Shown here in pieces: positions 12,665-28,861 of a DNA stretch of 53,536 nt. Origin of the DNA: Peptococcaceae bacterium (lineage in GTDB: Bacteria > Bacillota > UBA994); the NCBI GenBank assembly GCA_018334055.1, contig JAGXSS010000052.1:71612-125147 (forward strand). Reading direction: 5' to 3'. Both the position numbers and the translations under genes were made by a program. Below the pieces are notes generated by a model. The model did no database searches. It saw only the letters and a program-made list of their open reading frames with translations, and was not told the DNA's origin. The stretch's first letter is position 1, and each line of letters starts with the position of its first letter.

Positions 12665-13780
12665 CTAGGGGCGGTTGCGCGAACCCTTCCCCTTGCCAAT
12701 GGATATTTTTGGGAATAGCGGCCATACTATCTTTTCTAGCCTCGTGGGTTGAGGTTTTTCAGTTGGTGCTGCCGGTAGGGCTATTTCTGGTTGCGGGGGT
12801 GGCACCTCACTTATGGTGGAGCTGTTTACTTCCACACCTGGTAACTTTTGCACCTGTTCCTGCAACCAATCCAGCCACTCGGCCTTATCCTGCAATTGCG
12901 AGAGCACCTCCCTGCCCTTGAGATTAGGGCGCCCTCTGGCCAGTTCATCTAAAGATTCTACCCATTCATGCGGATAGAGAAGGTACGCGAACAACAGCTG
13001 CCATTCGGTAGCATTTAGGGGATGAGCATTCGTATAGGCCGCCAGAAAATGTAATACGCGGTCATTGGGATACCCACCGTCAACGAGCATGTGTCCTACG
13101 CTGATGTAGGACCAATCGACCAGGCAATCATATGCTTGATTGAGGCAGACCTGGTGACCAACACTCATATACACAAACTTATCAAACGTCGGATGCGGGA
13201 ATGTCAGCACTCTCGCCCCGTCATAATACCTTACTAACTCCTCCACCCGATTGAGCGATTCTTCCGCACATCTTAACAGCTGCCTGACCGCTTCGCCACG
13301 GTCACCCTGGCGATAGCGATGACCCGCGAGCCGCCAGTAGGCGGCCCGCTCTCGCGCTACCTCCCGCCAGGCTGGCGCAACCCTGGTGGGCGGGCAGGCT
13401 AGGAGGTAAAGCAACTCTTCAGAGGCAGCATGCACCTGCCCTAGGAGGCGAGCTATGGCCCTCACTTCGAAAATGTTGCTGCTATCGCAGGCGGTACCGG
13501 GAAAGTATTCCGTCAAGAAGAACTTGCTCTGATTGACTTCCGCCGCGAAACTGTCCCCTACTGTTCTAATAAATAGGCTGAGCCCCTTGATCCCCCGCTT
13601 TTTCAACTGCTCTAGACAACTGCCTGCCCAAGTAATTTCTTCGGTGCTGCCTGTATAGTCATGCACTGCCGCTAATCCATCCCTGGTAGCGAGACAGAGC
13701 TCGTTGTCCACAGGCAAAGGGCTAGCCGTTAAGCTATATTGCGCGGCAATCTCGGCCAATCTTGCCATCTTGGTGCTCAT
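12665..13780 (-). CDS. CotS/YutH-family spore coat-associated protein, probable pseudokinase
   Basis: About 371 residues with an aminoglycoside-phosphotransferase-like outline: N-lobe segments around GLAAVHDYTGSTEEITW and FFLTEYFPGTAC, helical C-lobe, and VDWSYISVGHMLVDGG where true kinases have the DFG-like Asp. The catalytic H-x-D-x-x-x-x-N loop is replaced by HPTFDKFVY, so phosphotransfer is unlikely. CotS and YutH are Bacillus coat proteins of this fold. The C-terminal 60 residues are a low-complexity Pro/Lys tail (PPPQPEIALPAAPTEKPQP) ending in basic residues. The start at 13780 follows GGGAGAGG. Coat location is inferred from the fold and the CotE/YheCD neighbours. Confidence 0.62.
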   Translation of the reverse strand: MSTKMARLAEIAAQYSLTASPLPVDNELCLATRDGLAAVHDYTGSTEEITWAGSCLEQLKKRGIKGLSLFIRTVGDSFAAEVNQSKFFLTEYFPGTACDSSNIFEVRAIARLLGQVHAASEELLYLLACPPTRVAPAWREVARERAAYWRLAGHRYRQGDRGEAVRQLLRCAEESLNRVEELVRYYDGARVLTFPHPTFDKFVYMSVGHQVCLNQAYDCLVDWSYISVGHMLVDGGYPNDRVLHFLAAYTNAHPLNATEWQLLFAYLLYPHEWVESLDELARGRPNLKGREVLSQLQDKAEWLDWLQEQVQKLPGVEVNSSTISEVPPPQPEIALPAAPTEKPQPTRLEKIVWPLFPKISIGKGKGSRNRP

Positions 13781-13864
13781 GTTCAATCCTCTCCCCATCT
13801 AGCGGTCATTTATAACCTATTCGGCGCCAGAGAGGAACTATTACTCAAAAGCCCAGAATGTGCT

Positions 13865-14311
13865 TTAGGCGAGCTCAGCGAACGTCTTTAGCTGAATCAC
13901 AACCTGCCCGTTGTCGCGTACGAACGCTCCGTAACCTAGCAATCCACAGGCAAACGCCAACTTAATGCTCGGCACATTGTCCGAGGCGATTTCTACGTGC
14001 AACTTACCGAGCATCTCCAGTGCGGTACGGAGCAATTGCTTACCCACTCCCTTGCTCCTCACGCCAGAGCGCACCACCACTATGGAAAATACCTCTCCAA
14101 AAGATTGGCAAACTAGTATGCCGAGGAATCGCTTCTGGTCTGTGGCCAAGAGTATCAGTGTGCCCGGCTCCTCTAGCGCCCGTTTGTCCAAATTCCTGAG
14201 CTTCTCCCTAGATTCAGGCGTGATGTGTTTATCTTTGTATTTAGCCACAAATTTAATCACTCGCGCCCTAAATTTGACCCATCTCATCGGTGAGACCCTA
14301 GTTACCAGCAT
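13865..14311 (-). CDS. GNAT-family N-acyltransferase
   Basis: 148-residue GCN5-related acyltransferase. The acetyl-CoA pyrophosphate-binding segment is visible as SIVVVRSGVRSKGVGKQLL (about 81-99), followed by the beta-5 region HVEIASDNVPSIKLAFACG typical of the fold. The N-terminal 30 residues are basic. Its ATG lies inside the 3' end of the preceding ATP-grasp gene (14 base overlap) after GGAGCGAGTC, so it is translated with that cluster. Some GNAT-fold proteins act as aminoacyl ligases or modify peptide amines, and that role would fit here, but the substrate is not shown by sequence. Confidence 0.82.
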   Translation of the reverse strand: MLVTRVSPMRWVKFRARVIKFVAKYKDKHITPESREKLRNLDKRALEEPGTLILLATDQKRFLGILVCQSFGEVFSIVVVRSGVRSKGVGKQLLRTALEMLGKLHVEIASDNVPSIKLAFACGLLGYGAFVRDNGQVVIQLKTFAELA

Positions 14312-15623
14312 GACTCGCTCCGTTAGTAACGCGCTTGCCGGCCAAGAAGCTACTGTACTCCACTAGGCGACACAGCGACAAACGCCTGATATGAGGTTCA
14401 TCAAATTTCATAGGTTTGGCATTGGCTTCAAAGAAATAACACTCCCCCTTCTTGGTGATGCCGATGTCCATGGACATCTCACCAAGCTCTTGACGCATGT
14501 GTTTTTCAATAGTCGGTGCGATTGCCAGCGCCAACTTTTTGACTCGCTGGTAAATCCCATCCTTTGTGTCTGGTTTTTCGCCGAAAACATCCCGGAGGAT
14601 TTTTTCGACGGGAGCGATGTAACCCCCGCATGGCACGTGAGTGGTGATCCCCCCACGACCCGCTACCCGAACACCAATGCCGGTGAGGTCCCAGGTGCCC
14701 GCCGCACCTTTCTGCACTAGGACACGCACATCAAAAATCGCCCCCTGGTACATGGCCAACGATAATCCCTGCTGAACTATGTACGTTCCTGGTTGTTTCC
14801 TTAAACTAACAGTTTGGAGAAGGCCACGGAAGTCCACGCAGTGCTCCTCCCGCATCTGTGTTCCTTCACGATAGCGCAGCAGAAAACCATTACCTGTGGT
14901 TCGTAATTGGAAAATCCCCTGCCCGGCGAAGCTGCTGACAGGCTTCAGATACACCATTTGGTGCTCTTTCAGCATGCGCAAGAGGTCTGTAGCCGAGCGT
15001 AACAGCCTCGTACCAGGTAGGTATCGCGCTAAGGCATCGTCTTGGCTGAGCCAAGCGTGAAGTTGCCACTTATTCAGGAAGCCGGGATTGAAGAGGGCGC
15101 CACCTTGTTCGGTGAACCTCCGCTTGGCAAGGGTTACGGTCCGTTTCCCCTCTGACGTTCGATCTGGAACGCGGTTGTAGATAACGTCAGGCCATGGGTA
15201 CTCTCTTGCCACCCACTGCCTAGCGGCATTTCGCCCGTACCCGAGCACCCTCTTTTGCCGGTAGTACATATTTTCGGCAGCGAAAACGAAGACTACTGCC
15301 CCATACTCGCGACCGATGCGAGCTAGCCCATCATAGTTGTCTCGTTTTCCGCTGAGGCTACAAAAACCTCCCCTTGCTGATGGCCGCAGAACAGTCATAA
15401 TCCCTATATATGGGCCTATCCGCCACCCTTCGGCATCTGGCCATAGCGCCACCTGTTGCCCTTCATGGAGCCCGAGGGCAACTATGTCCACCGGCCTCAC
15501 CTGCAGTACCCACTTCTCCCCCTGCGCAATGAGTCTAGCGCGCGCCTCGCTGGCACCACCTCTCACGGTAATGTCCTCTCGCGCACCAGAAGGCGCATCT
15601 ATAGACACTCTCACTACTCGCAA
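14298..15623 (-). CDS. YheC/YheD-family ATP-grasp protein, paralogue 4
   Basis: About 441 residues. An N-terminal beta-rich domain (about 1-85, ending GWRIGPYIGIMTV) precedes an ATP-grasp fold: MVYLKPVSSFAGQGIF (nucleotide-binding lysine and glycine loop), TYIVQQGLSL, AIFDVRVLVQK and the metal-binding FFEANAKP. ATP-grasp enzymes of this type form acyl-phosphate intermediates and amide bonds; YheC and YheD of Bacillus are coat-associated but biochemically uncharacterised. TTG at 15623 is preferred because AGGAGGTGG lies just upstream; a GTG at 15632 overlaps that site. It shares only moderate similarity with its three neighbours, so the paralogues are old. Confidence 0.85.
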   Translation of the reverse strand: MRVVRVSIDAPSGAREDITVRGGASEARARLIAQGEKWVLQVRPVDIVALGLHEGQQVALWPDAEGWRIGPYIGIMTVLRPSARGGFCSLSGKRDNYDGLARIGREYGAVVFVFAAENMYYRQKRVLGYGRNAARQWVAREYPWPDVIYNRVPDRTSEGKRTVTLAKRRFTEQGGALFNPGFLNKWQLHAWLSQDDALARYLPGTRLLRSATDLLRMLKEHQMVYLKPVSSFAGQGIFQLRTTGNGFLLRYREGTQMREEHCVDFRGLLQTVSLRKQPGTYIVQQGLSLAMYQGAIFDVRVLVQKGAAGTWDLTGIGVRVAGRGGITTHVPCGGYIAPVEKILRDVFGEKPDTKDGIYQRVKKLALAIAPTIEKHMRQELGEMSMDIGITKKGECYFFEANAKPMKFDEPHIRRLSLCRLVEYSSFLAGKRVTNGASHAGN

Positions 15624-15635
15624 TGCTTCCACCTC

Positions 15636-16982
15636 CTAACTAATCGGGCCAAAACCGGCAACATAATGGGCAAAGGCGCAGATGTAGTGCAGGGACCGTC
15701 GTCCATCCCTCTTCGCCCAGACGGGGGCAAAGACCATCCTGCCGGGCCGAGCATTCACTTCAAAAAGGTGCACCTCACCTTGAGGTGTAAGACCTAAGTC
15801 TAGCCCCAGCTCTCCCAAGGGGAGGTGACTGGCCTTCTCGATTGCCCGGGCAATTTTGGTACTCGCCTCTAGTACACGTTCATAGACTGCGCTGTCATCC
15901 CGTGGAAAGACTTCACGCAAGACTTTCTTCAACGGATATACCCTTCCCCCACTGTGAACATGCGTAGTAACGGCACCTACCGCGGCAACTTTAGCGGCTG
16001 GCCCAACCACTTCCCAATCGCCTTGACCGTTCCTGTGCAAGGTCACCCGCACGTCAAAGACGCGACCATGGTATCTAGCTATAGTCACACCCTGTTGCAC
16101 CAGGTATCGCCTCCGGTGCTTTGCCAAGTAGACATCGGCTGCTGCCTCGGCAAAATTCGCATGCAGATGTTCAAGGTTGCGCTCACCAAGGCGGTAGGAA
16201 ACCGTATACCCCCCCTCACGCCCCCGCGCGACTCGAACAATGCCCTTGCCAAGACTCCCGCCCAGTGGCTTAACATAGGCCTGACCGTGGCGCAACAAGA
16301 TGCGCTCCATGTCGCGCACACTAGCAAGCAGGCGAGTTTCGGGTAGATATTGCCGCGACTCCTGCATAGCAGACAACCAGCGATGCACCTGCCACTTGTC
16401 AAAAAATCGGGGGTTAAACATGTAGGTGTGTTTTACTTCTGCCAGCTGTCGCAAAAAACGACGGTAATGTAGTGTACGCTCTAGACTACGATTAGGGACC
16501 CGATTATATATGACATCAGGCAGGGGGAGCACCATCCGCTCTGCGCCACCCCTCCTCTCCACCCAGCCACGCACTAAACGCTGCGACCAGTCGACATCAT
16601 GCGGGGCAAAGGCATAGACCATGGCCCCGAGCGCCATCCCCTCGCGCCACAACCCTCGAAAAAGGGAGGCATCATGCGTGCCTTCTTGACCGCTCGCCGC
16701 CACTGTCAAGAGACCGATCAAAGGGCCAACTTGCAGCTCCCCTCTGTTAGCATGGTAGACCAATTTCCCTCGGTAGGAATTTGGAAAATAAAGACGCGCT
16801 CGGAGCATCGGGGACATGCGCACCCCATCTCCCTCCTGCCTGACTAGGACGGTGGCTGTAGCTACCTCACAGCCAAATCTCACCCGGACATCACTTTCAT
16901 GGGCCAAGCCCCACTTCGCTGCTTCCGCACCGGTAACGTAGAACAAACTGCGCTTACGACCTACATCAACCAAGGCTCTCAC
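15636..16982 (-). CDS. YheC/YheD-family ATP-grasp protein, paralogue 3
   Basis: About 448 residues with the same two-part layout: N-terminal domain (about 1-95, ending LQVGPLIGLLTVA), PLPDVIYNRVPNR linker, then ATP-grasp motifs QAYVKPLGGSLGKGI (about 235-249), YLVQQGVTI, VFDVRVTLHR, GELGLDLGL and FEVNARPGR (about 408-416). All ATP and metal ligands expected of an active ATP-grasp ligase are present. Two adjacent GTG codons (16985 and 16982) follow AAAAAAGGAG; the second has better spacing. The start lies inside the end of the upstream paralogue, so the genes are coupled. Confidence 0.86.
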   Translation of the reverse strand: MRALVDVGRKRSLFYVTGAEAAKWGLAHESDVRVRFGCEVATATVLVRQEGDGVRMSPMLRARLYFPNSYRGKLVYHANRGELQVGPLIGLLTVAASGQEGTHDASLFRGLWREGMALGAMVYAFAPHDVDWSQRLVRGWVERRGGAERMVLPLPDVIYNRVPNRSLERTLHYRRFLRQLAEVKHTYMFNPRFFDKWQVHRWLSAMQESRQYLPETRLLASVRDMERILLRHGQAYVKPLGGSLGKGIVRVARGREGGYTVSYRLGERNLEHLHANFAEAAADVYLAKHRRRYLVQQGVTIARYHGRVFDVRVTLHRNGQGDWEVVGPAAKVAAVGAVTTHVHSGGRVYPLKKVLREVFPRDDSAVYERVLEASTKIARAIEKASHLPLGELGLDLGLTPQGEVHLFEVNARPGRMVFAPVWAKRDGRRSLHYICAFAHYVAGFGPIS

Positions 16983-18087
16983 CACCGCTCCTTTTTTCGA
17001 GTGCTAGATACTTGCAGTATTGCATGGGTCTCAGGATACTTACCTGGCGCAAGGACGGGTCCTTAATGTGTAAGAAAATTGTTCGTCCCGGCTTACTGTT
17101 AGCTTCAATTAGCCAGACTTTGCCATCTCGGTCCACACCAAAGTCCAAGCCAAGTTCACCATACCTACCAAGTTCCCTATCCATAAGCTCGGGGATGCTG
17201 ACAGCTAGCCTGCTGAGCACGGCCATTATGTCGGCAGATTTTTCCGCGAACAGATTACGCAAGAGCCCCTCGGTGCGCACAGCACTACCTCCGCCATGTA
17301 AATTAGAAGTCACACTGTTTGGGCGCCCCATCCTGACGGCAGTGCCTGTAACTTGCCATTTTCCCTCATGATCCTTCTGCACAACCGCTCGAATATCAAA
17401 GGTCCTGCCCCGCAAGTGATTAAGGTTGAGCCCCTGCTGTACCAAGAGGCGTTTACGCTGACTGGCAGCTCTCGCCAAGGCGAGAACTGCATTCAAAGAG
17501 GTCACATTTACAGAGAACGGCATGTTTTGATGGTCACGCCCGTGGCAACTGAAGCCATTAGCGATTTCCCTGATCGCAACTACACCCTTGCCCTGACTGC
17601 CCATGTCTGGCTTTACAAACACATATCCATATTTCTTGATCATGAAAGCCAAATCATCAACATGCCGCAAAATCATGGTGTGGGGGATGTGCTCTTTTAA
17701 GTCCGCGTGTTTGAACAGCGCGCGGTAGGTCTCCCACTTCCCCCTCCCCGAGCGTCCAAACAAACGAACATTGCCTTGCCGGCGCAAGCGCTTGGCAGCG
17801 GCGAAAAGGACATTCGCCAGGCGCCCGCGGGGCGGGAACAATCGATCGTAAACCACATCAGGGAAAGGAAACTGTCGCGCAAACCAAGATCCCACGCTAT
17901 TTTGGTAAGCGTATCCATAAATAGTACGATTGTGCCAATTAATATCTAACGGGCAGAAGACGAAGGCCTTTATAGCAAGACTGCTGGCTGCGGCAATCAG
18001 TTGGCGGAAGTAACTCGCCTCGGCGAATGGCATCGTCAGTTTTCGACTACGGTAAGCCATTATTCCAACACTGATAGAGCGAACCAT
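16966..18087 (-). CDS. YheC/YheD-family ATP-grasp protein, paralogue 2 (lacks N-terminal domain)
   Basis: 373 residues; unlike the other three it has no separate N-terminal beta domain and starts directly at the MVRSISVGIMAYR strand. ATP-grasp motifs are complete: YVFVKPDMGSQGKGVV (about 155-170), LLVQQGLNL, TFDIRAVVQK, SVTSNLHGGGS, GELGLDFGVD and LIEANSKPGR (about 326-335). It is the closest of the four to what I recall of canonical YheC/YheD. ATG follows GTGAGGTGAAACC. Product and substrate are unknown; an amide ligase role is inferred from the fold. Confidence 0.87.
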   Translation of the reverse strand: MVRSISVGIMAYRSRKLTMPFAEASYFRQLIAAASSLAIKAFVFCPLDINWHNRTIYGYAYQNSVGSWFARQFPFPDVVYDRLFPPRGRLANVLFAAAKRLRRQGNVRLFGRSGRGKWETYRALFKHADLKEHIPHTMILRHVDDLAFMIKKYGYVFVKPDMGSQGKGVVAIREIANGFSCHGRDHQNMPFSVNVTSLNAVLALARAASQRKRLLVQQGLNLNHLRGRTFDIRAVVQKDHEGKWQVTGTAVRMGRPNSVTSNLHGGGSAVRTEGLLRNLFAEKSADIMAVLSRLAVSIPELMDRELGRYGELGLDFGVDRDGKVWLIEANSKPGRTIFLHIKDPSLRQVSILRPMQYCKYLALEKRSGGESLG

Positions 18088-18107: not shown

Positions 18108-19508
18108 TTACCGGTAAATCCTACTCCGAGGAATACGAAGGCCCCAGGCACGCCGTATATCTGCTTTTTCCGACCAAGTTCTGCCTGCCAGAATCATCTC
18201 CTCAAGCACCTCTAATACGCGCGCGTAGAGGGCAAAGGTACTCGTAGTTCTAATATCTGCCCACAGCTCACGAAAGTGAGAGGTAAAATATGCCCTATCG
18301 GCGGCCGCAAAAGCCACCTGAGCTTCCGGGCAGGCAAACACGTCATGCCGCAAAACATGGTACTCGCTGGCGATTACCTTCGCTAAGCAAAGTGTTGCCG
18401 TAGCAATTTCAGGGGAAATCAACCAACTGGAGGGAGTACGGTACTCAAAACCTCCGTGTACTTTCATCCTGAAATCCCCCAGATACCCGTACTTGGCGCG
18501 CCGCAATGCTGCGGTATGCCCCTCTTCAATCAGAAGCAAGGGGATGGCCAAGTAATTATCGAACGCCCTAAGCAGTTGACCGCTCACCAGCACTCCGGCA
18601 AAGTGGATGTGTCCGCCAATTGGAAATTTACGGAAGGGCATGCTCCCCCCGCGCCATTCTATATTGCCATACGGGGAAAGCCGCAGCGCCAGTTCCATGG
18701 CCCGACGGATATTATCGGTGAGTTGGAGAGGTGAATAGCTCGGCGCGGGTCGTAGCTCCGCCAAAGGATAGCCGGATACAGTTCCTTTGACAAAGCGAGA
18801 ATCGCAGCCTACCGTCCCTTCACGAGGAAAGAATGTCGAGGCCATGAGCATTTTTCCTGTGCGGTTATCGCGCAACATGAATTCGGGGTCCGCGCCAATG
18901 CTCACTGCTTTGTCCAAGTACGCTGGGTTGGCTCTTTGGAAAATCGACATGGTCTGCCGCAGCTCTACCTCGCGCAATCTCCGCCGTATGGGTTCGACGA
19001 GCGCTTGCGCCAGCAACCGACTATCTCTCGGGGCAACATTGACTGCAGCTACTCCGAGGCGTCCTTGGCTACATAGCCTTATGTCCACCGCGGCAAAATC
19101 AAGGCCGAGCACATGCAAGGCGCGTGCAGCCAGAGCAGTTGCCTCCCTAGTTTCCTTGGAACTGTTGACCCCCACTACGACGGTGGCCCGACTGCCTATC
19201 TCTTGCCGGAGGATGAGCACCGGCAGAAGGTCAAACATGTAGATGCTGTAGCGGCGATAACATGACCTACTGTGAAGGTTGATGTTGTTTTTCTGCCATA
19301 CTTTACGGGCCTCGGGCAAGAGCTGTAGGGCCTTGGCCCGGTTGATGACCACCGCGCAGTCAGGATCAGGACCCTCATTGACCCCCCAGCGAATGAGAAG
19401 CTTGGGGTAGGCACCCAAATCGAGCTTCTTCTCAACTTCTAGCTCGGGCATCTCTTGGCAGAGGTAGCTTAGGCGGCGTGGCTCAGAATGCAAAATGACA
19501 ACTGTCAT
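18108..19508 (-). CDS. Putative amidoligase (COOH-NH2 ligase type 2) with a degenerate ATP-grasp-like N-terminal half
   Basis: 466 residues in two parts. Residues about 200-466 carry the marks of the glutamine-synthetase-like COOH-NH2 ligase family: GADPEFML (205-212), AELRPAPS (250-257), GGHIHFAG (298-305) and FEYRTPSSWL (354-363), which supply metal, ATP and guanidino-type ligands. Residues 1-190 resemble a shortened RimK-like fold (KLLIRWG, LGLDFAAVDIRL), but where an ATP-grasp has E-x-N the sequence reads AAVNVAPR, so the catalytic glutamate is missing. It sits between ATP-grasp paralogues 1 and 2 with short gaps (13 and 20 bases). Probably forms an amide or peptide bond in a coat-related product; substrate unknown. 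Confidence 0.78.
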   Translation of the reverse strand: MTVVILHSEPRRLSYLCQEMPELEVEKKLDLGAYPKLLIRWGVNEGPDPDCAVVINRAKALQLLPEARKVWQKNNINLHSRSCYRRYSIYMFDLLPVLILRQEIGSRATVVVGVNSSKETREATALAARALHVLGLDFAAVDIRLCSQGRLGVAAVNVAPRDSRLLAQALVEPIRRRLREVELRQTMSIFQRANPAYLDKAVSIGADPEFMLRDNRTGKMLMASTFFPREGTVGCDSRFVKGTVSGYPLAELRPAPSYSPLQLTDNIRRAMELALRLSPYGNIEWRGGSMPFRKFPIGGHIHFAGVLVSGQLLRAFDNYLAIPLLLIEEGHTAALRRAKYGYLGDFRMKVHGGFEYRTPSSWLISPEIATATLCLAKVIASEYHVLRHDVFACPEAQVAFAAADRAYFTSHFRELWADIRTTSTFALYARVLEVLEEMILAGRTWSEKADIRRAWGLRIPRSRIYR

Positions 19509-19521
19509 TCACACCTGCCCC

Positions 19522-20874
19522 TTAGCGCAGACCACGACTGCAAAGAAATTTAACCAGCTTCACTACCGAACCCGCCACCAGTTTGGTGGGTAGGTCATTG
19601 GTCTGCCGACCAGGCCTAGAGTTAGCCTCTAGTATCCATATTTTTCCATGAATATCTATGGCCAGATCCACCCCCATTTCGGCAAATTCCATATCCATCC
19701 CCCTTTCGATAGCCCTGGCCACTTTTTTGGCAACTATACTCATGATCTTAACCTGTCTGCCCGCTCCCGCCCGCAGGCCTAAGGCCGACATGATGGCTTG
19801 GCGAGGAGACATAGTCGTCGCTCCGTCCGCAATATTTGAGATAATGTTGCCGGGTTGGGCAACCCTCGCGACTGTGCTTGCAACAAACCACTGGTTACGG
19901 CCATTCTTTTGCAGAAGGATCCTCACATCAAAAGGGCAGCCATTGACGCGAGCCAGGCGTATGCCTCTCTGCACAATGTACTGACCCTGCCTCATCAGTA
20001 CCCGGACCGTGCGGAGAATCTTTTCGCTACTGCAGGTATTTCCGCGTAAATCGGGGCGATTGAAACGTGTCAAACGGTACCCATAGACCGAACCAACTCT
20101 CACCACCCTGAGGATACCAACCCCTAGGGACCCCTCTGCTGGCTTCACAAAAACCGACTGGTATTGCCTCAGGTACTCCAACATTTTTTCGGCCGAGAGC
20201 TCCCCGGTGCTAGGCAGGTATCTTCTTAATTTCACATGGCCACTTAGAATGCGGTGCACTTCCCACTTGTTAAAGAAGCTGCGGTTGTAATACTTGAGAC
20301 GCGGGTACCCTAGCAAGCGCTCCTTCATTTTGACTACGGCACCGTTTTTTTCAACTCGGCGACTGGAGACCTTATCGTAGACGACATCGGGCAACGGACA
20401 ATCGACCCGAGCAACACCACCTTGGTGGTAAACCCACCCTGCGACACTCCCTCTCTCCCAGTCAATGTCGCTCGCCCCGAAGGCATAGGCCATCGCGCCT
20501 TGTCGACTAGCCAGACGCAGGCAGTCCCTCACAATTTCGACATGTACTCCAAGCGATTTGTTACTCTGCCCCCCCACCAAGATGCCCAGCACCGGCCCAA
20601 TCCGCACTCCACCGCCCGCCTTATCGCGCCAAACACAAAGGTGTAAGGACTCTCTAAGATGTAGCGCGAGAAAAAGCGATCTACTGAGATGAATTTTCGA
20701 CAACCTACCCTTGCTGCACCCCGGCTCGACTCTAGCTACGGCCGTAGACTGTCCGACGGAGAACTGAACCGTTGGCGCACTGACTTCTAGGGTCTGCCGG
20801 AGGTTATGCGGTATCACTACGACATGTTCAGTGGTCTCGTCTTCGAGCACGAGCAACTCAATTCGTACAACCAC
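19522..20874 (-). CDS. YheC/YheD-family ATP-grasp protein, paralogue 1 (altered glycine loop)
   Basis: 450 residues, first gene of the block. An N-terminal beta domain (about 1-100, ending VRIGPVLGILVGG) precedes CPLPDVVYDKVSSR and ATP-grasp motifs VFVKPAEGSLGVGIL (about 241-255), YIVQRGIRL, PFDVRILLQK, EMGVDLAID and LEANSRPGR (about 415-423). The loop reads GSLGVG where paralogues 2 and 3 have GKG, so one lysine is lost, and GNIISNIADGA replaces the NLHGGG segment. Other ligands remain. GTG at 20874 follows GGAGGATGTGA. It begins 63 bases after the cotE terminator, so it needs its own promoter. Confidence 0.84.
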   Translation of the reverse strand: MVVRIELLVLEDETTEHVVVIPHNLRQTLEVSAPTVQFSVGQSTAVARVEPGCSKGRLSKIHLSRSLFLALHLRESLHLCVWRDKAGGGVRIGPVLGILVGGQSNKSLGVHVEIVRDCLRLASRQGAMAYAFGASDIDWERGSVAGWVYHQGGVARVDCPLPDVVYDKVSSRRVEKNGAVVKMKERLLGYPRLKYYNRSFFNKWEVHRILSGHVKLRRYLPSTGELSAEKMLEYLRQYQSVFVKPAEGSLGVGILRVVRVGSVYGYRLTRFNRPDLRGNTCSSEKILRTVRVLMRQGQYIVQRGIRLARVNGCPFDVRILLQKNGRNQWFVASTVARVAQPGNIISNIADGATTMSPRQAIMSALGLRAGAGRQVKIMSIVAKKVARAIERGMDMEFAEMGVDLAIDIHGKIWILEANSRPGRQTNDLPTKLVAGSVVKLVKFLCSRGLR

Positions 20875-21001: not shown

Positions 21002-21568
21002 TCAGGAGAGCTCGGTGTCCAGGAACTCCTCTTCATTTTCTGAAAAATCGGCAAAGTCCTCGTCGTCGGCGAAATCCTCGCCTTTTTTGTCCTCTACACC
21101 TTCCGGCGGCTCAAAGACCTTGACCCACAACTTGGCCTCGCCGACAATCTCGGCGTAGAACTCAAGCACTGCCGACATTTCGAGCATCCCACGCCGCACA
21201 TGTACGTCAAGGATGCGTGGCTCCTTAACGACAGAGGCTTCTACATACTCACCAACGCAAAGTCGCACTCCTTCGAGGTCGACTACCGGCAAGTGCTCAG
21301 TATAGCAGACGGTCTTCTTCTCGACACAGGTCTGGTTCCCACGATCATAGGCATACCAAACATGCCCATCGTACTGGCCCGTTATGACCACAAAATTGCG
21401 CTCGGGCGAGGCCACGAAGCTGTGGTTGGTTATACGGTAGCCAAGAACCGTGTCGGGGACATGCGTAGCGTGCAACGAAAAACTCTGTTTAAAACGCTTC
21501 TGCCCTTTTGCGCAGGTGGTGCGAGCTATAATATCCCTCAGCCCTTGAGAATCTTGGCGGTTCCACAT
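21002..21568 (-). CDS. cotE: CotE-like outer spore coat morphogenetic protein
   Basis: 188 residues matching the layout of Bacillus CotE, which anchors the outer coat to the inner coat. Shared landmarks: DIIARTTCAKGQKRFKQS at the start, LGYRITNHSF, GQYDGHVWYAYD (CotE has YDVNVWYSY), AVLEFYAEIVGEAKLWVKV (CotE has EFLAEVVGETKVVVEV), and a strongly acidic C-terminal tail (about 158-188, rich in E and D). ATG follows AAAGGGGGTGA. Monocistronic: terminator directly downstream and a candidate promoter directly upstream. Its position next to YheC/YheD and CotS-like genes supports a coat role for that block. Confidence 0.85.
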   Translation of the reverse strand: MWNRQDSQGLRDIIARTTCAKGQKRFKQSFSLHATHVPDTVLGYRITNHSFVASPERNFVVITGQYDGHVWYAYDRGNQTCVEKKTVCYTEHLPVVDLEGVRLCVGEYVEASVVKEPRILDVHVRRGMLEMSAVLEFYAEIVGEAKLWVKVFEPPEGVEDKKGEDFADDEDFADFSENEEEFLDTELS

Positions 21569-21595: not shown

Positions 21596-21603
21596 ATAGT
21601 ATG
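21596..21603 (-). promoter_or_regulatory. Candidate sigma-E-type -10 element for cotE
   Basis: Minus strand reads CATACTAT, 27 bases before the cotE ATG and just after the lgt stop. Early mother-cell (sigma-E) promoters have a CATACnnT -10, and Bacillus cotE is transcribed in the mother cell. The -35 region (GTAGCA around 16 bases upstream) is a poor match, so this is tentative. Confidence 0.3.
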
Positions 21604-21621
21604 AACGGGGGTGAAAAGTTG

Positions 21622-22335
21622 CTACCGAAGACGGCGATAATAATACGCTCCGAGCAAGATAAAAAATACACTCATGATCTGGGCTGCCCTGAAGGGGCCA
21701 AGCAGTAGGCTGTCAGCTCGGATCGCTTCAATCCAAAGCCGGCCCAGCGAGTAGCCCATGAGGTACAAGGTCGCTACCTGGCCGATAAACTGCCTGCGCT
21801 GTAGCACCCACATGAGCAACACAAAAACCCCTAGATTCCATAACGATTCATAAAGAAAAGCCGGATGACGGAACTCGCCGGCGATAAACATAGCCCACGG
21901 CAGGCGCGTAGGTATTCCATAAGCCTCCTGGTTAAAATAATTGCCCCACCGACCGATAGCTTGCGCTAAGATCAGGCTTGGTGCGGCGATATCCGCCCAT
22001 TGCCAAAAATTTACTCGGCGATAGCGAACATAAACATAGGCGGCCAGCACTCCGCCCAAGACGCCACCATGTATCGCTAGCCCACCTTCCCGAAAATTTA
22101 GAACCTCTGCCAGGGAATCGTATGCCGTAAAGTTAAAGGCCACAAAGTAAAGTCGCGCCCCCAAGAGACCCATTGGAATGGCGAACAAAAGCATGTCGAG
22201 AAACCAGTTCTCGTTTTCCTGCAGTCGACGCGCCACGCGCAAGGCTAGCATAATGCCTAGGAGCATGCCTGCCGTTATCACAATGCCATACCAACGAACG
22301 GCAAAACCTAAAACCTCAAAGGCTACCGGATCCAC
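21622..22335 (-). CDS. lgt: Phosphatidylglycerol-prolipoprotein diacylglyceryl transferase Lgt
   Basis: Integral membrane enzyme that attaches diacylglycerol to the lipobox cysteine of prolipoproteins. 237 residues with about seven hydrophobic helices. Signature GRWGNYFNQEAYG is at about 127-139, with GLAIHGGVLGG (about 84-94) before it and RHPAFLYESLWN (about 155-166) and GRLWIEAIRAD after it. GTG start after GGGGAGGGGGAGCGTAG. A substrate in this window would be the GerC lipoprotein at 27731. Confidence 0.95.
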   Translation of the reverse strand: MDPVAFEVLGFAVRWYGIVITAGMLLGIMLALRVARRLQENENWFLDMLLFAIPMGLLGARLYFVAFNFTAYDSLAEVLNFREGGLAIHGGVLGGVLAAYVYVRYRRVNFWQWADIAAPSLILAQAIGRWGNYFNQEAYGIPTRLPWAMFIAGEFRHPAFLYESLWNLGVFVLLMWVLQRRQFIGQVATLYLMGYSLGRLWIEAIRADSLLLGPFRAAQIMSVFFILLGAYYYRRLR

Positions 22336-24978: not shown

Positions 24979-25146
24979 ATGCCACCTTTGGGAATGATAA
25001 GCGAGAGTCTACAGCGGAGGGCGGTGTTACTGTGCGCAGAAGAAGGGGGAGACGCGAAGAAGAAACAGCCCACAAAGTACCCACCCCCCAGCCCGTCAAG
25101 GAGGAAGAAGACGTTCCTCTCTCCCCAGACATCAGGAAGAACATAG
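24979..25146 (+). CDS. Possible small leader ORF overlapping gerA
   Basis: 55 codons beginning MPPLGMISESLQRR, preceded by a strong AGGGAGG eight bases upstream, and ending 114 bases inside gerA in another frame. The second half is simply Lys/Pro-rich and resembles no family I know. It may be a leader peptide that couples translation into gerA, or the ribosome site may be fortuitous. Confidence 0.2.
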   Translation: MPPLGMISESLQRRAVLLCAEEGGDAKKKQPTKYPPPSPSRRKKTFLSPQTSGRT

Positions 25147-26657
25147 CCCGGCTCAAGGCAACCCTCGGTGGCAGCGATGACATTGTGTTTCGCGAATTTA
25201 AGATCAACAATGCCAGCGAGCTAGAGGCGGCCTTGATTTTCATCGATGGGCTGACCAACAAAGATCACCTGCAGCGTGACCTCCTCGCTCCGCTCATGCT
25301 TTTCGCCAACCAGACTGGGCAGGCCGAGTGGGCATCAGGCCGGCGCGGTTTTGAGGCGCTGAAAAGCCGACTGTTGACGATGACCGAGATTAAGGACGCG
25401 TCCACCCTGCGCGAATGCATAGAGGCGGTACTCGCCGCCGACGCCGTCTTGCTCATCGAGGGCAGTGAACGAGCCATACTCCTCGGGGTGAAGACCTGGG
25501 AGCACCGCCCCGTAATGGAGCCGACTTCGGAGAGAATTGTGCGCGGGCCCAGGGACGGCTTTAACGAACTCTTTAAGAGCAACATTGCTCTCGTCCGGCG
25601 CAGAATTAAGAGCCCCTACTTGCGTGTCAAGTACGCGCGGGTCGGCAGGCGCACCCAGACCGACATAGCCATCATGTTCGAAGAAGCATTGGCAGACCCC
25701 GCCCTCGTGACGGAAGTCTATCGCCGCATGCAGTTTATGGATGTAGATGGCATTCTCGACTCCGGCTACATCGAGCAATATATCGAAGACAGCCCCTACT
25801 CACCCTTCCCCCAGGTGCAGCACACCGAGCGCCCCGATCGAGTGGCGGCAGCCCTCCTCGAGGGTAGGGTCGCTATCCTAGTCGACGGCACCCCATTTGC
25901 CATCATGGTGCCGGCTACGCTGAGTAATTTCTTGCCCACGCCGGAGGACCACTACGAGCGTTGGCTGCTGATGACCGGGGTGAGAGTCATACGGACCGTA
26001 AGCCTCTTTGTCGGCATCTTGCTGCCGGCACTCTATGTCGCCATCACTACCTTTCACCATGAAATGATCCCGAGGCAGCTCGTGCTCACCATCACAGCCG
26101 CCAGAGTGGGCGTACCCTTTCCGGCCATGGTCGAGGCTCTCGTTATGGAAGTTACGTTTGAGCTGCTACGAGAAGGCGGCATACGTGTTCCCGGGCCGAT
26201 TGGCCCCACCATCGGCATCGTGGGAGGTATTATCATCGGCCAAGCGGCCGTCGTGGCGGGACTAGTGAGCCCCATCATGGTGGTGGTGGTAGCGGTCACT
26301 GCCATTGGCTCCTTTGCCGTACCATCTTTCAATGTCGGCTTGGCGCTCCGCTTGCTCCGGTTCCCGCTCATTCTTTTCGCAGGTGCATTTGGCCTCTACG
26401 GGGTTATGGCGGGAGTGATTATCATCTTAATGCACGTGGTCAGCTTGAAGTCCTTTGGTGTACCCTACCTAGCCCCCATTGCACCTTCAAACAGCCAGGC
26501 CCTTAAGGACACCATAGTGCGTGCGCCCTTGTGGTCACTCACCCATCGCCCAAAGCCCTTTCACCCTAGGGAAGAGCGACGCATAGGAAGGCCGCATTTT
26601 ATGCAGCACAAACAAGATCGGGGAGAACAGGATGAACCCAGCGAAGATCCAAATTAG
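25032..26657 (+). CDS. Spore germination receptor protein GerA-type (A subunit)
   Basis: 541-residue A subunit of a germinant receptor in the spore inner membrane. A basic N-terminus is followed by a large soluble domain (about 25-300, with DAVLLIEGSERAILLGVKTW and VRRRIKSPYLRVKYARVGRR), then five or so membrane helices (about 305-480) including SLFVGILLPALYVAITTFHHE and GPIGPTIGIVGGIIIGQAAV, typical of GerAA/GerKA. A short charged tail ends the protein. GTG start after GGAGGGCGG. First gene of gerA-gerB-gerC; gerB begins 26 bases before its end. Confidence 0.95.
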   Translation: MRRRRGRREEETAHKVPTPQPVKEEEDVPLSPDIRKNIARLKATLGGSDDIVFREFKINNASELEAALIFIDGLTNKDHLQRDLLAPLMLFANQTGQAEWASGRRGFEALKSRLLTMTEIKDASTLRECIEAVLAADAVLLIEGSERAILLGVKTWEHRPVMEPTSERIVRGPRDGFNELFKSNIALVRRRIKSPYLRVKYARVGRRTQTDIAIMFEEALADPALVTEVYRRMQFMDVDGILDSGYIEQYIEDSPYSPFPQVQHTERPDRVAAALLEGRVAILVDGTPFAIMVPATLSNFLPTPEDHYERWLLMTGVRVIRTVSLFVGILLPALYVAITTFHHEMIPRQLVLTITAARVGVPFPAMVEALVMEVTFELLREGGIRVPGPIGPTIGIVGGIIIGQAAVVAGLVSPIMVVVVAVTAIGSFAVPSFNVGLALRLLRFPLILFAGAFGLYGVMAGVIIILMHVVSLKSFGVPYLAPIAPSNSQALKDTIVRAPLWSLTHRPKPFHPREERRIGRPHFMQHKQDRGEQDEPSEDPN

Positions 26658-27741
26658 CGCTAGACAACTAATGCTCCTCAAACTTACCGGAATAACGGGA
26701 GTGCTTTTCTTAGGCTCCATCCGCCTGCTCACCATTACCGCCGGGGCCCAAGGCATCATTGCTATTGCCGGCGGAGGAATTATTGGCCTCGTCATTCTCT
26801 ACCTAGCGGTGACTGTGGCTAAAATGTTCCCAGAGCAAACGCCCTTTGAATTCGCCCAAGCGATCTACGGCCGGTGGATGGGATCCCTCATCGCCCTCTC
26901 CCTCATTGTCTATAACCTCATCATCAGTGCCATGTTGCTCCGGGACCTCGGGGACTTCCTCATCACGGCCATACTGCCCGAGACACCAATTAGCGCCAAT
27001 ATTTTGCTCATGCTCGGCTTAGTCTGTTTTGGGGTGTATTTGGGGCTCGAGAGCCTCGCTTATTTTAATGAGGGCTTCTCTCCGCTCATCTTCATCTCGT
27101 GGCTGATTGTCATTGCCTCCGGCCTCCTCAGGGCCGATTTCGGCTGGTTGCAGCCCCTCTTTGTCGTCGAGCCGGGGAGGCTATTGCTGTCCACCGTTCA
27201 CTCGGGGGGCTTAGTAGTCGACGGCCTTATGGTTTTGCTATTCTACAGTTTTGTCACCGACAAACACCAAGTTCTCAAGTACAATGCGTGGGCGATAGTC
27301 ATCGCCACCATCATCATCGGTGCCATCCAGATTGCCGTTGTGGCCAGTTTAAGCCCTAACTTGGCAAAAACGGCACTCTACCCGGTGTTGGAGCTAGCCA
27401 GAAATGCCCCCCTAGGCGTCTTTCTCGAACGAATAGAAGCTCTCTACCTTGCTTTATGGATCATGGCCACTTTTATCAAAATCTCGATACTATTTTATGC
27501 CAACTGCCTCGGTCTTACCGCCATCACCGGAGTCGCTAACTACCGGTACTTCATCCTCCCATTGGCCCTAGTCACTTTGTACCTTTCCTTCCAAGCTGAC
27601 AGTGTCGTGCAGAGCATCCTTTTTGATGCCATTTTTAACCAATACGCGCTCCTGTATGACTTCTCCCTCCTGCTGCTCCTGCTCCTTGGTGGACTGTGGG
27701 TGCGAAAACCGATTAAGAAGCGGGTCGCCCGTGGGTCGTAA
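26632..27741 (+). CDS. Spore germination receptor protein GerB-type (APC-superfamily permease)
   Basis: 369 residues with about ten hydrophobic helices, the B subunit that is thought to bind germinant. The N-terminus ISARQLMLLKLTGITGVLFLG and the SGLLRADFGWLQPLF segment in the middle are family-like. ATG follows GGGGAGAACAGG inside gerA, and the end overlaps the gerC start by eleven bases, so the three receptor subunits are translationally coupled. Ligand specificity cannot be read from sequence. Confidence 0.93.
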   Translation: MNPAKIQISARQLMLLKLTGITGVLFLGSIRLLTITAGAQGIIAIAGGGIIGLVILYLAVTVAKMFPEQTPFEFAQAIYGRWMGSLIALSLIVYNLIISAMLLRDLGDFLITAILPETPISANILLMLGLVCFGVYLGLESLAYFNEGFSPLIFISWLIVIASGLLRADFGWLQPLFVVEPGRLLLSTVHSGGLVVDGLMVLLFYSFVTDKHQVLKYNAWAIVIATIIIGAIQIAVVASLSPNLAKTALYPVLELARNAPLGVFLERIEALYLALWIMATFIKISILFYANCLGLTAITGVANYRYFILPLALVTLYLSFQADSVVQSILFDAIFNQYALLYDFSLLLLLLLGGLWVRKPIKKRVARGS

Positions 27742-28861
27742 AGTAACGCTCATGCTTTTGCTCGCCCTATTACCCCCACTACTCGTCGGCTGCTGGAGCT
27801 CGCGCGAAGTCGAGAGCATGGCCTTTGTTATGGCGCTTGGGGTAGACGTGGCTAAAGAGGGGGTACAACTGACGGTACAAGTGGCTCTCCCAGCAGGCGG
27901 CGGGGGCGGCGGAGGTGGAGCACAAGGCGGAGAGACCCCGGTCTGGGTGACCGGCACTACAGCACCCTCCATAGCGGAAGGTCTCTTTAAAATGCCGGCC
28001 ATGCTGGGCCGGGAGGCCTTCTTGGGGCACCTGCAGGTAGTTGTTGTGGGCGAGGCCTACGCCTTACAAGGCATCGGTCCGCTGATTGATTTTTTGGCGC
28101 GCGAACGCCAAGTGCGCGACACAGTGCACCTGGCTGTAGCACTAGGCAAGGCCGAAGACTTGCTCATGGTGGAACCCAAAGTCGTGCAGATGCCGGCAGA
28201 CTACATGTTTGAACTCCTCAAGCAAGGGGCGCAAAGCGGACTAATCCCTCCCTCTGAATTTCTGCGCACCCGTATCGCCTGGCACAATCGACCGCAACTC
28301 CAGATATTGTTGCCGCTGCTAGAGCCTGAGCCTAATAGCCCTCCGGAGGCCATCTCCCTCAAAGGGTCGGGCGTCTTTGTGGATGACCGCATGGTCGGCA
28401 CCCTTGACACTAAGGAAAGCCGCGGCCTGGCTTGGCTGATGGGGACAGTTTCAAATACCATCATTACTATCCCCAGAGAGGAGGGCAACATCATCCAGCA
28501 TGTCAATTTCGCTTCGGTCAGGTATAAACTGCGGGAGACTGACGAGGGGGCAGGCCTAACCGCAATAGTCAGTCAGGATGGCAATTTGACCCAGTGGCCG
28601 CTCCAGGATGAGGGCATTACTTTCCCCTTACTCAAACAGCTTGAGCAGGACCTATCCGTCGTTATTCTAGGCGAGATTACAGCCGGCCTCGCCGCGATCC
28701 AAGGCGTGTACCGAACAGATGTAATCGGTCTTGGTGAAAGGCTGCGCCGCATAGACCCGAAACAATTCGCCGCCAAGAACTGGGATGAGGCCTTCCCCCA
28801 ATTTGCACTCGACGTGCGGGTGCAGGCAGCATTTCGTCGGGTGGGGCTTATTCTCCGTTGA
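27731..28861 (+). CDS. Spore germination receptor lipoprotein GerC-type (C subunit)
   Basis: 376 residues. A lipoprotein signal peptide (MGRKVTLMLLLALLPPLLVGC) has its lipobox cysteine at about residue 21, followed by WSSREVESMAFVMALGVD, the usual GerC start. Domain landmarks GREAFLGHLQVVVVGEAYA and PPSEFLRTRI are visible. An unusual run of eight glycines (AGGGGGGGGAQGG) interrupts the first domain at about residue 59. GTG at 27731 was chosen because it gives a proper signal peptide; the reading frame stays open back to 27602 but that would bury the signal. A bidirectional terminator follows. Confidence 0.9.
   Translation: MGRKVTLMLLLALLPPLLVGCWSSREVESMAFVMALGVDVAKEGVQLTVQVALPAGGGGGGGGAQGGETPVWVTGTTAPSIAEGLFKMPAMLGREAFLGHLQVVVVGEAYALQGIGPLIDFLARERQVRDTVHLAVALGKAEDLLMVEPKVVQMPADYMFELLKQGAQSGLIPPSEFLRTRIAWHNRPQLQILLPLLEPEPNSPPEAISLKGSGVFVDDRMVGTLDTKESRGLAWLMGTVSNTIITIPREEGNIIQHVNFASVRYKLRETDEGAGLTAIVSQDGNLTQWPLQDEGITFPLLKQLEQDLSVVILGEITAGLAAIQGVYRTDVIGLGERLRRIDPKQFAAKNWDEAFPQFALDVRVQAAFRRVGLILR

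Follow-up and report, generated by a model that had tools for sequence, protein, structure and literature searches.

A spore-coat-cluster amidoligase with a probable degenerate RimK-like ATP-grasp half

The window, i.e. the whole 53,536-nucleotide stretch of Peptococcaceae DNA analysed here, encodes within a spore-coat gene cluster an amidoligase that appears to combine two ligases in one polypeptide, one intact and one dead. On the sequence level, it is well supported that the protein is a variant of the known PF14395 family, preceded by a module that descends from RimK-like ATP-grasp enzymes. We consider it probable that it serves as a late mother-cell coat ligase in which the dead ATP-grasp half has become a docking or substrate-holding domain. 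The features on which this reading is based are collected in Table 1.

Table 1. Features of the window and of related loci (residue numbers are those of the window protein)
Feature	Position	Strand	Basis or remark
Amidoligase gene	18108..19508	-	ORF, 466 aa, ATG start
Probable degenerate RimK-like ATP-grasp module, residues 1-203	18900..19508	-	profile, hhalign and fold matches
Approximate point of the missing RimK ATP-binding subdomain (Lys, Gly-rich loop), residues ~76-84	19257..19283	-	alignments to 5zct/4iwx and L083
AAVNVAPR, residues 154-161, ATP-grasp E-x-N site	19026..19049	-	Glu position is Ala155; Asn157 kept
PF14395 COOH-NH2 ligase domain, glutamine-synthetase-like fold, residues 204-457	18138..18899	-	E 4.6e-98
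GADPEF catalytic motif, residues 205-210	18879..18896	-	invariant or near-invariant in homologue alignment
GGHIHF catalytic motif, residues 298-303	18600..18617	-	homologue alignment
GGFEYR catalytic motif, residues 352-357	18438..18455	-	homologue alignment
Sigma-K-like promoter AGCA-N16-CATACTAT	21596..21623	-	upstream of cotE
CotE, first cluster gene	21002..21568	-	PF10628 2.1e-27
YheC/D ATP-grasp 1	19522..20874	-	PF14398 1.9e-66; intact E-x-N
YheC/D ATP-grasp 2	16966..18087	-	PF14398 3.2e-78
YheC/D ATP-grasp 3	15636..16985	-	PF14398 3e-71
YheC/D ATP-grasp 4	14298..15632	-	PF14398 2e-72
GNAT acetyltransferase	13865..14311	-	PF00583 1.4e-6
CotS-like spore-coat protein	12665..13798	-	TIGR02906 3.3e-14, below curated cut-off
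Triple fusions	L079 8067-10886 (-), L080 910-3792 (+), L081 11467-14433 (+)		one open frame each
Split amidoligase loci	L088 6989-13733 (-), L089 3608-10212 (+)		genomes G008, G010

Domain composition of the amidoligase

The C-terminal match to PF14395 covers the whole model (1-254 of 254) with 327.9 bits against a cut-off of 25. Each of the conserved sets of the family, i.e. GxDPEF, AExRP (here AELRP), GGHxH (GGHIH), RR..YG and GFEYR, was found in the window protein, which keeps the family-invariant residues D207, P208, E209, F210, A250, E251, R253 and P254 as well as G298, G299, H300, H302, R336, R337, G341, R347 and G353-R357. An alignment of 23 homologues revealed 36 invariant columns, 33 of them within the C-terminal domain, and these 33 are present in the window protein. 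A full-length AlphaFold model from a four-row alignment, usable for the C-terminal half only (the N-terminal part has a pLDDT of 30-50), matched PafA, glutamine synthetase and glutamate-cysteine ligase in fold. Considering the whole-model match, the invariant residues and these glutamine-synthetase-type fold matches, the catalytic half looks intact.

Whereas PF14395 accounts for the C-terminal half only, the N-terminal module is without a family model. Residues 1-203 gave no match to any Pfam or NCBIfam model, PF14398 of YheC/D included, and a PDB search with the single sequence retrieved nothing. Homologues were drawn from 52 of 398 genomes of the phylum and, within one class that often has the gene, from 48 of 63; 46 N-terminal halves, mostly of the phylum set, were aligned. 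A Pfam scan of all 46 returned chance-level matches only, two of them to D-Ala ligases (best 0.0025). When the profile of this alignment was run against all ORFs of 23 loci, the sole match outside the family was a RimK-like ATP-grasp protein (L083; E 1.3e-6) encoded in a related amidoligase cluster, which itself matches PF08443 at 5.4e-25 and has an intact LEVNVCPG. Comparison by hhalign with eight RimK-like proteins yielded P 2.9e-6, as against 0.098-0.64 for five unrelated control families (CotE, GNAT, CotS, LGT and the amidoligase domain). The top 50 Foldseek matches of a weak model of residues 1-200 (mean pLDDT 50.6) were all ATP-grasp proteins, the best at E 1.0e-4. Against the PDB, the profile matched RimK weakly (E 0.12), and a profile of the long clade reached D-Ala ligases at 0.02. 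Two other PDB matches were judged to be due to chance, namely a KAS III chain that topped the search with the whole N-terminal profile (0.0018) by a short helix match, and DNMT3A chains found with the long-clade profile (0.04) through a WGN stretch in an unrelated fold.

With RimK-like (PF08443) and D-Ala-D-Ala ligases the module shares the pre-ATP-grasp R-x-G and N motifs, the hinge helix, the GLD..VD strand and the x-x-N-x-x-P end. The YheC/YheD proteins (PF14398) of the same operon are more distant ATP-grasp relatives, with hhalign P values of about 1e-3 when the full set of halves is used and 2e-5 with the long clade. Since the YheC/D proteins of the window match the N-terminal profile with P 9e-4 only, RimK is the closer relative. 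We regard the homology of residues 1-203 to RimK-like ATP-grasp enzymes as well supported. The initial annotation had described a resemblance to a shortened RimK-like fold. The ATP-grasp kinship agrees with the profile, hhalign and Foldseek results, but the fold as such is predicted only with low confidence.

The window module differs from RimK-like ligases in having neither an ATP-binding subdomain nor the catalytic Glu, and in its fusion to another ligase. The spacing from the hinge helix to the C-lobe helix is about 117 residues in RimK chains versus about 43 in the window protein, and in the alignment with L083 the gap falls over yplvaKppqGaggdGvqrv, by analogy the ATP-holding Lys and the Gly-rich loop. 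At the E-x-N site of the 46 homologues, the first position is Glu in a single case (L062, LEIDRVP) and Asp in about eight, while the Asn position is occupied by Asn in 8 and by Asp in 21. The four neighbouring YheC/D proteins, by contrast, keep both the Lys/Gly loop and E-x-N (LEANSRPG, IEANSKPG, FEVNARPG and FEANAKPM). From the letters of the window it had been annotated that the C-terminal half retains all amidoligase motifs and that AAVNVAPR replaces the catalytic E-x-N. The former is borne out by the PF14395 match and the invariant residues; the latter holds as well, with the refinement that an entire subdomain has gone along with the Glu. Whether the Glu is always missing had been left to an alignment of homologues: it is absent in 45 of the 46, L062 being the exception. 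An intact ATP site in the N-terminal half of a homologue would have spoken against the annotation; none of the homologues examined has one, though some longer ones keep remnants.

This longer N-terminal form, with the remnants YPLIGK, GRTYGHHQG and D-x-N, occurs in nine homologues of the set and in three fusion proteins. Some of the long homologues retain D-x-N together with a loop resembling GRTYGHHQG, so parts of the family may not be dead. In the domain tree, the root of which is arbitrary, the long form is not monophyletic; it is RimK as outgroup, and not the tree, that suggests that the short form arose by deleting the subdomain. Given the loss of both the ATP-binding subdomain and the catalytic Glu, the view that the short-form N-terminal half would be incapable of ATP-grasp chemistry is well supported. 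A search of the available literature for dead or inactive ATP-grasp domains found none. Only few residues are conserved among the 46 halves (N56, Y87, A127, G135, L136, V141 and P160). As A127, G135, L136, V141 and P160 persist while the Glu is absent, the N-terminal fold seems to be under selection.

The spore-coat gene cluster and its relatives

In the family and class to which the window belongs, the genes are arranged in the order lgt, cotE, yheC/D, amidoligase, three further yheC/D genes, GNAT and cotS. YheC/D adjoins the amidoligase in 19 of 23 loci and is fused to it in three more, and CotE is encoded nearby in 14 of the 23. The window protein resembles the PF14395 family (phage phiEco32-like COOH.NH2 ligase type 2) not only in its C-terminal 254 residues, which fit the whole model, but also in the recurrence of a cluster with YheC/D and CotE; the family's entry in Pfam, which follows Iyer et al. 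2009, reportedly already links it to both in firmicutes. An operonic linkage of ATP-grasp and COOH-NH2 ligase genes has been noted earlier (PMC4431377, citing Iyer et al. 2009). For B. subtilis YheD, PMC7911427 describes a shell round the spore and self-interaction, the function being not known.

In three genomes, the pseudo-ATP-grasp module, the amidoligase and YheC/D are encoded as a single ORF of 940-989 residues. All clustered homologues examined have the N-terminal module. Phage homologues on viral contigs match from about residue 190-300 onwards, i.e. in the C-terminal domain only, so the catalytic domain can apparently exist without the module.

The sigma-K consensus of B. subtilis promoters is mACm-N16-CATAnnAT, and we searched for this pattern (mACm, 16 bases, CATAnnAT). 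The sole relaxed match in the window lies 27 bases ahead of cotE and departs from the strict consensus at a single base (AGCA for AACA). Strict matches number 15 in 22 loci, where about three would be expected; 13 of them immediately precede cotE and one precedes yheC/D, and 11 of the 22 loci are without one. Sigma-K-like sites upstream of cotE were found in the window and in L001, L002, L070-L073, L075, L076, L084 and L087, with nearly none elsewhere in those loci. We infer, with this B. subtilis-based consensus, that the cluster is under sigma-K control.

Several further features of these loci were recorded. An intact RimK-like ATP-grasp gene (L083 12096-14021, minus strand) shares its cluster with several yheC/D genes and a pair of amidoligases, and two amidoligase genes lie near each other within one cluster in L002 (3840-7305), L059 and L054. 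Close to the coat cluster of the window, three consecutive genes (25032-28861, plus strand) resemble, by their translations, a germination operon of the gerA/gerB/gerC type. The amidoligases of one family (L012, L022, L023, L024, L030, L031 and L033) bear a long Ser/Asn/Arg-rich C-terminal tail with R-[IV]-[IV]-x-P-x-x-[IV]-R-R as its common end motif; this tail may serve as a self-substrate or for targeting. The amidoligase gene of L005 (genome G003, 5.3 kb contig) has an in-frame TAA close to its 3' end, which may reflect either an assembly error or decay.

A split amidoligase gene in a related genus

In G008 and G010, two genomes belonging to a single genus, the amidoligase gene is interrupted at the same codon, beside the GGHIHF motif, by elements of 5,347 bp and 5,210 bp, respectively. 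Each element encodes a 504-aa large serine recombinase (PF00239, PF07508 and PF13408) and an epimerase-like protein in the same order, and the remaining cargo differs. Direct repeats are found at both junctions (10 bp in L088, 14 bp in L089). Computed joining at the repeat restores the GGHIHF motif and one stop-free frame of 465 aa (G008) or 464 aa (G010), and the joined proteins align to residues 79-462 of the window protein. The recombinases are 62% identical, similar to the 58-73% of the flanking host proteins, which fits an element inherited together with its host from a time before the two species diverged. At E 1e-20, no match to the recombinase was found in the eleven other genomes searched.

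By analogy, the element is a candidate sporulation intervening element of the sigK/skin type. In the portions available of PMC5595907, PMC4191935 and PMC10747680, such elements are described for sigK (skin), spsM (SPbeta), spoVFB (vfbin), spoVR (vrin), gerE (gin) and yabG (yin). Like the G008/G010 element, they have a large serine recombinase and junctions marked by a short direct repeat, and they lie in a sporulation-associated target gene that would be restored by joining; they differ in that the target here is a spore-coat amidoligase, which is not among the targets named in those passages, the element spans only about 5.2-5.3 kb and the joining is computed from the sequence. A search of the available literature for an amidoligase gene carrying an intervening element found none.

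Possible role of the N-terminal half

For the substrate, the docking role and the order of the reactions we infer the following scheme. The ligase would be produced late, in the mother cell, under sigma-K control. Its C-terminal glutamine-synthetase-like domain would activate a carboxylate at the expense of ATP and then couple this carboxylate to an amine. The N-terminal half, a former RimK-like ligase that would no longer perform ATP-grasp chemistry after losing its ATP-binding subdomain and catalytic Glu, would hold the acceptor peptide or coat protein, or dock the active YheC/D enzymes of the same operon, and successive ligations would take place on one scaffold. Docking or substrate holding is suggested by the persistence of the module, its absence from the phage matches and the fusions with YheC/D. 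A positioning of the product of the neighbouring ATP-grasp enzymes, as put forward in the initial annotation, is consistent with the conserved cluster and the triple fusions.

Outside a handful of structural residues conservation is low, with a mean column identity of 19%, as would also be expected if the N-terminal half were a structural or oligomerisation leftover without a substrate role, the link to the cluster being due to the amidoligase alone. We consider this unlikely: the module is found in every clustered homologue examined, and, judging by the phage homologues, the catalytic domain can exist without it. Another conceivable function is that of an allosteric sensor, in which the half still binds nucleotide or metal and regulates the amidoligase. 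Asn157 of the window protein and, in long homologues, D-x-N and a loop remnant with Arg for Lys would suit such a sensor, but the short form, that of the window included, is devoid of the entire Lys/Gly-loop subdomain and the N-equivalent position is Asn in just 8 of 46, which makes it improbable. That the likeness to ATP-grasp enzymes is nothing but a chance beta-alpha-beta pattern appears very improbable: the missing Pfam and NCBIfam matches, the RimK PDB value and the low pLDDT could be cited in its favour, yet the RimK-specific profile match, the hhalign value with its clean controls, the colinear N, hinge, GLD..VD and N-x-x-P motifs and the exclusively ATP-grasp Foldseek matches all argue against it.

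Returning to the docking or substrate-holding role, a more far-reaching proposal may be ventured, which we hold to be tentative and rather doubtful as a whole. In spore-forming Bacillota, the pseudo-ATP-grasp domain fused to the amidoligase would be a scaffold on which the amidoligase and active YheC/D ligases build, under sigma-K, a coat-linked peptide or isopeptide polymer, and one genus would gate production of the ligase through a small recombinase element whose programmed excision frees the catalytic centre.

Coat enzymes of the YheC/D type have been known for years, while a function for them has been lacking. A two-ligase scaffold in a sigma-K-type operon would indicate the chemistry to look for, namely amide or isopeptide bonds in the coat. 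Unlike its phage relatives, which match at the catalytic domain only, the clustered enzyme would always be accompanied by a dead second ligase. The split gene is a candidate new target of sporulation-time gene rearrangement, and as such it may provide independent evidence for an action of the amidoligase gene in the mother cell, which differentiates terminally.
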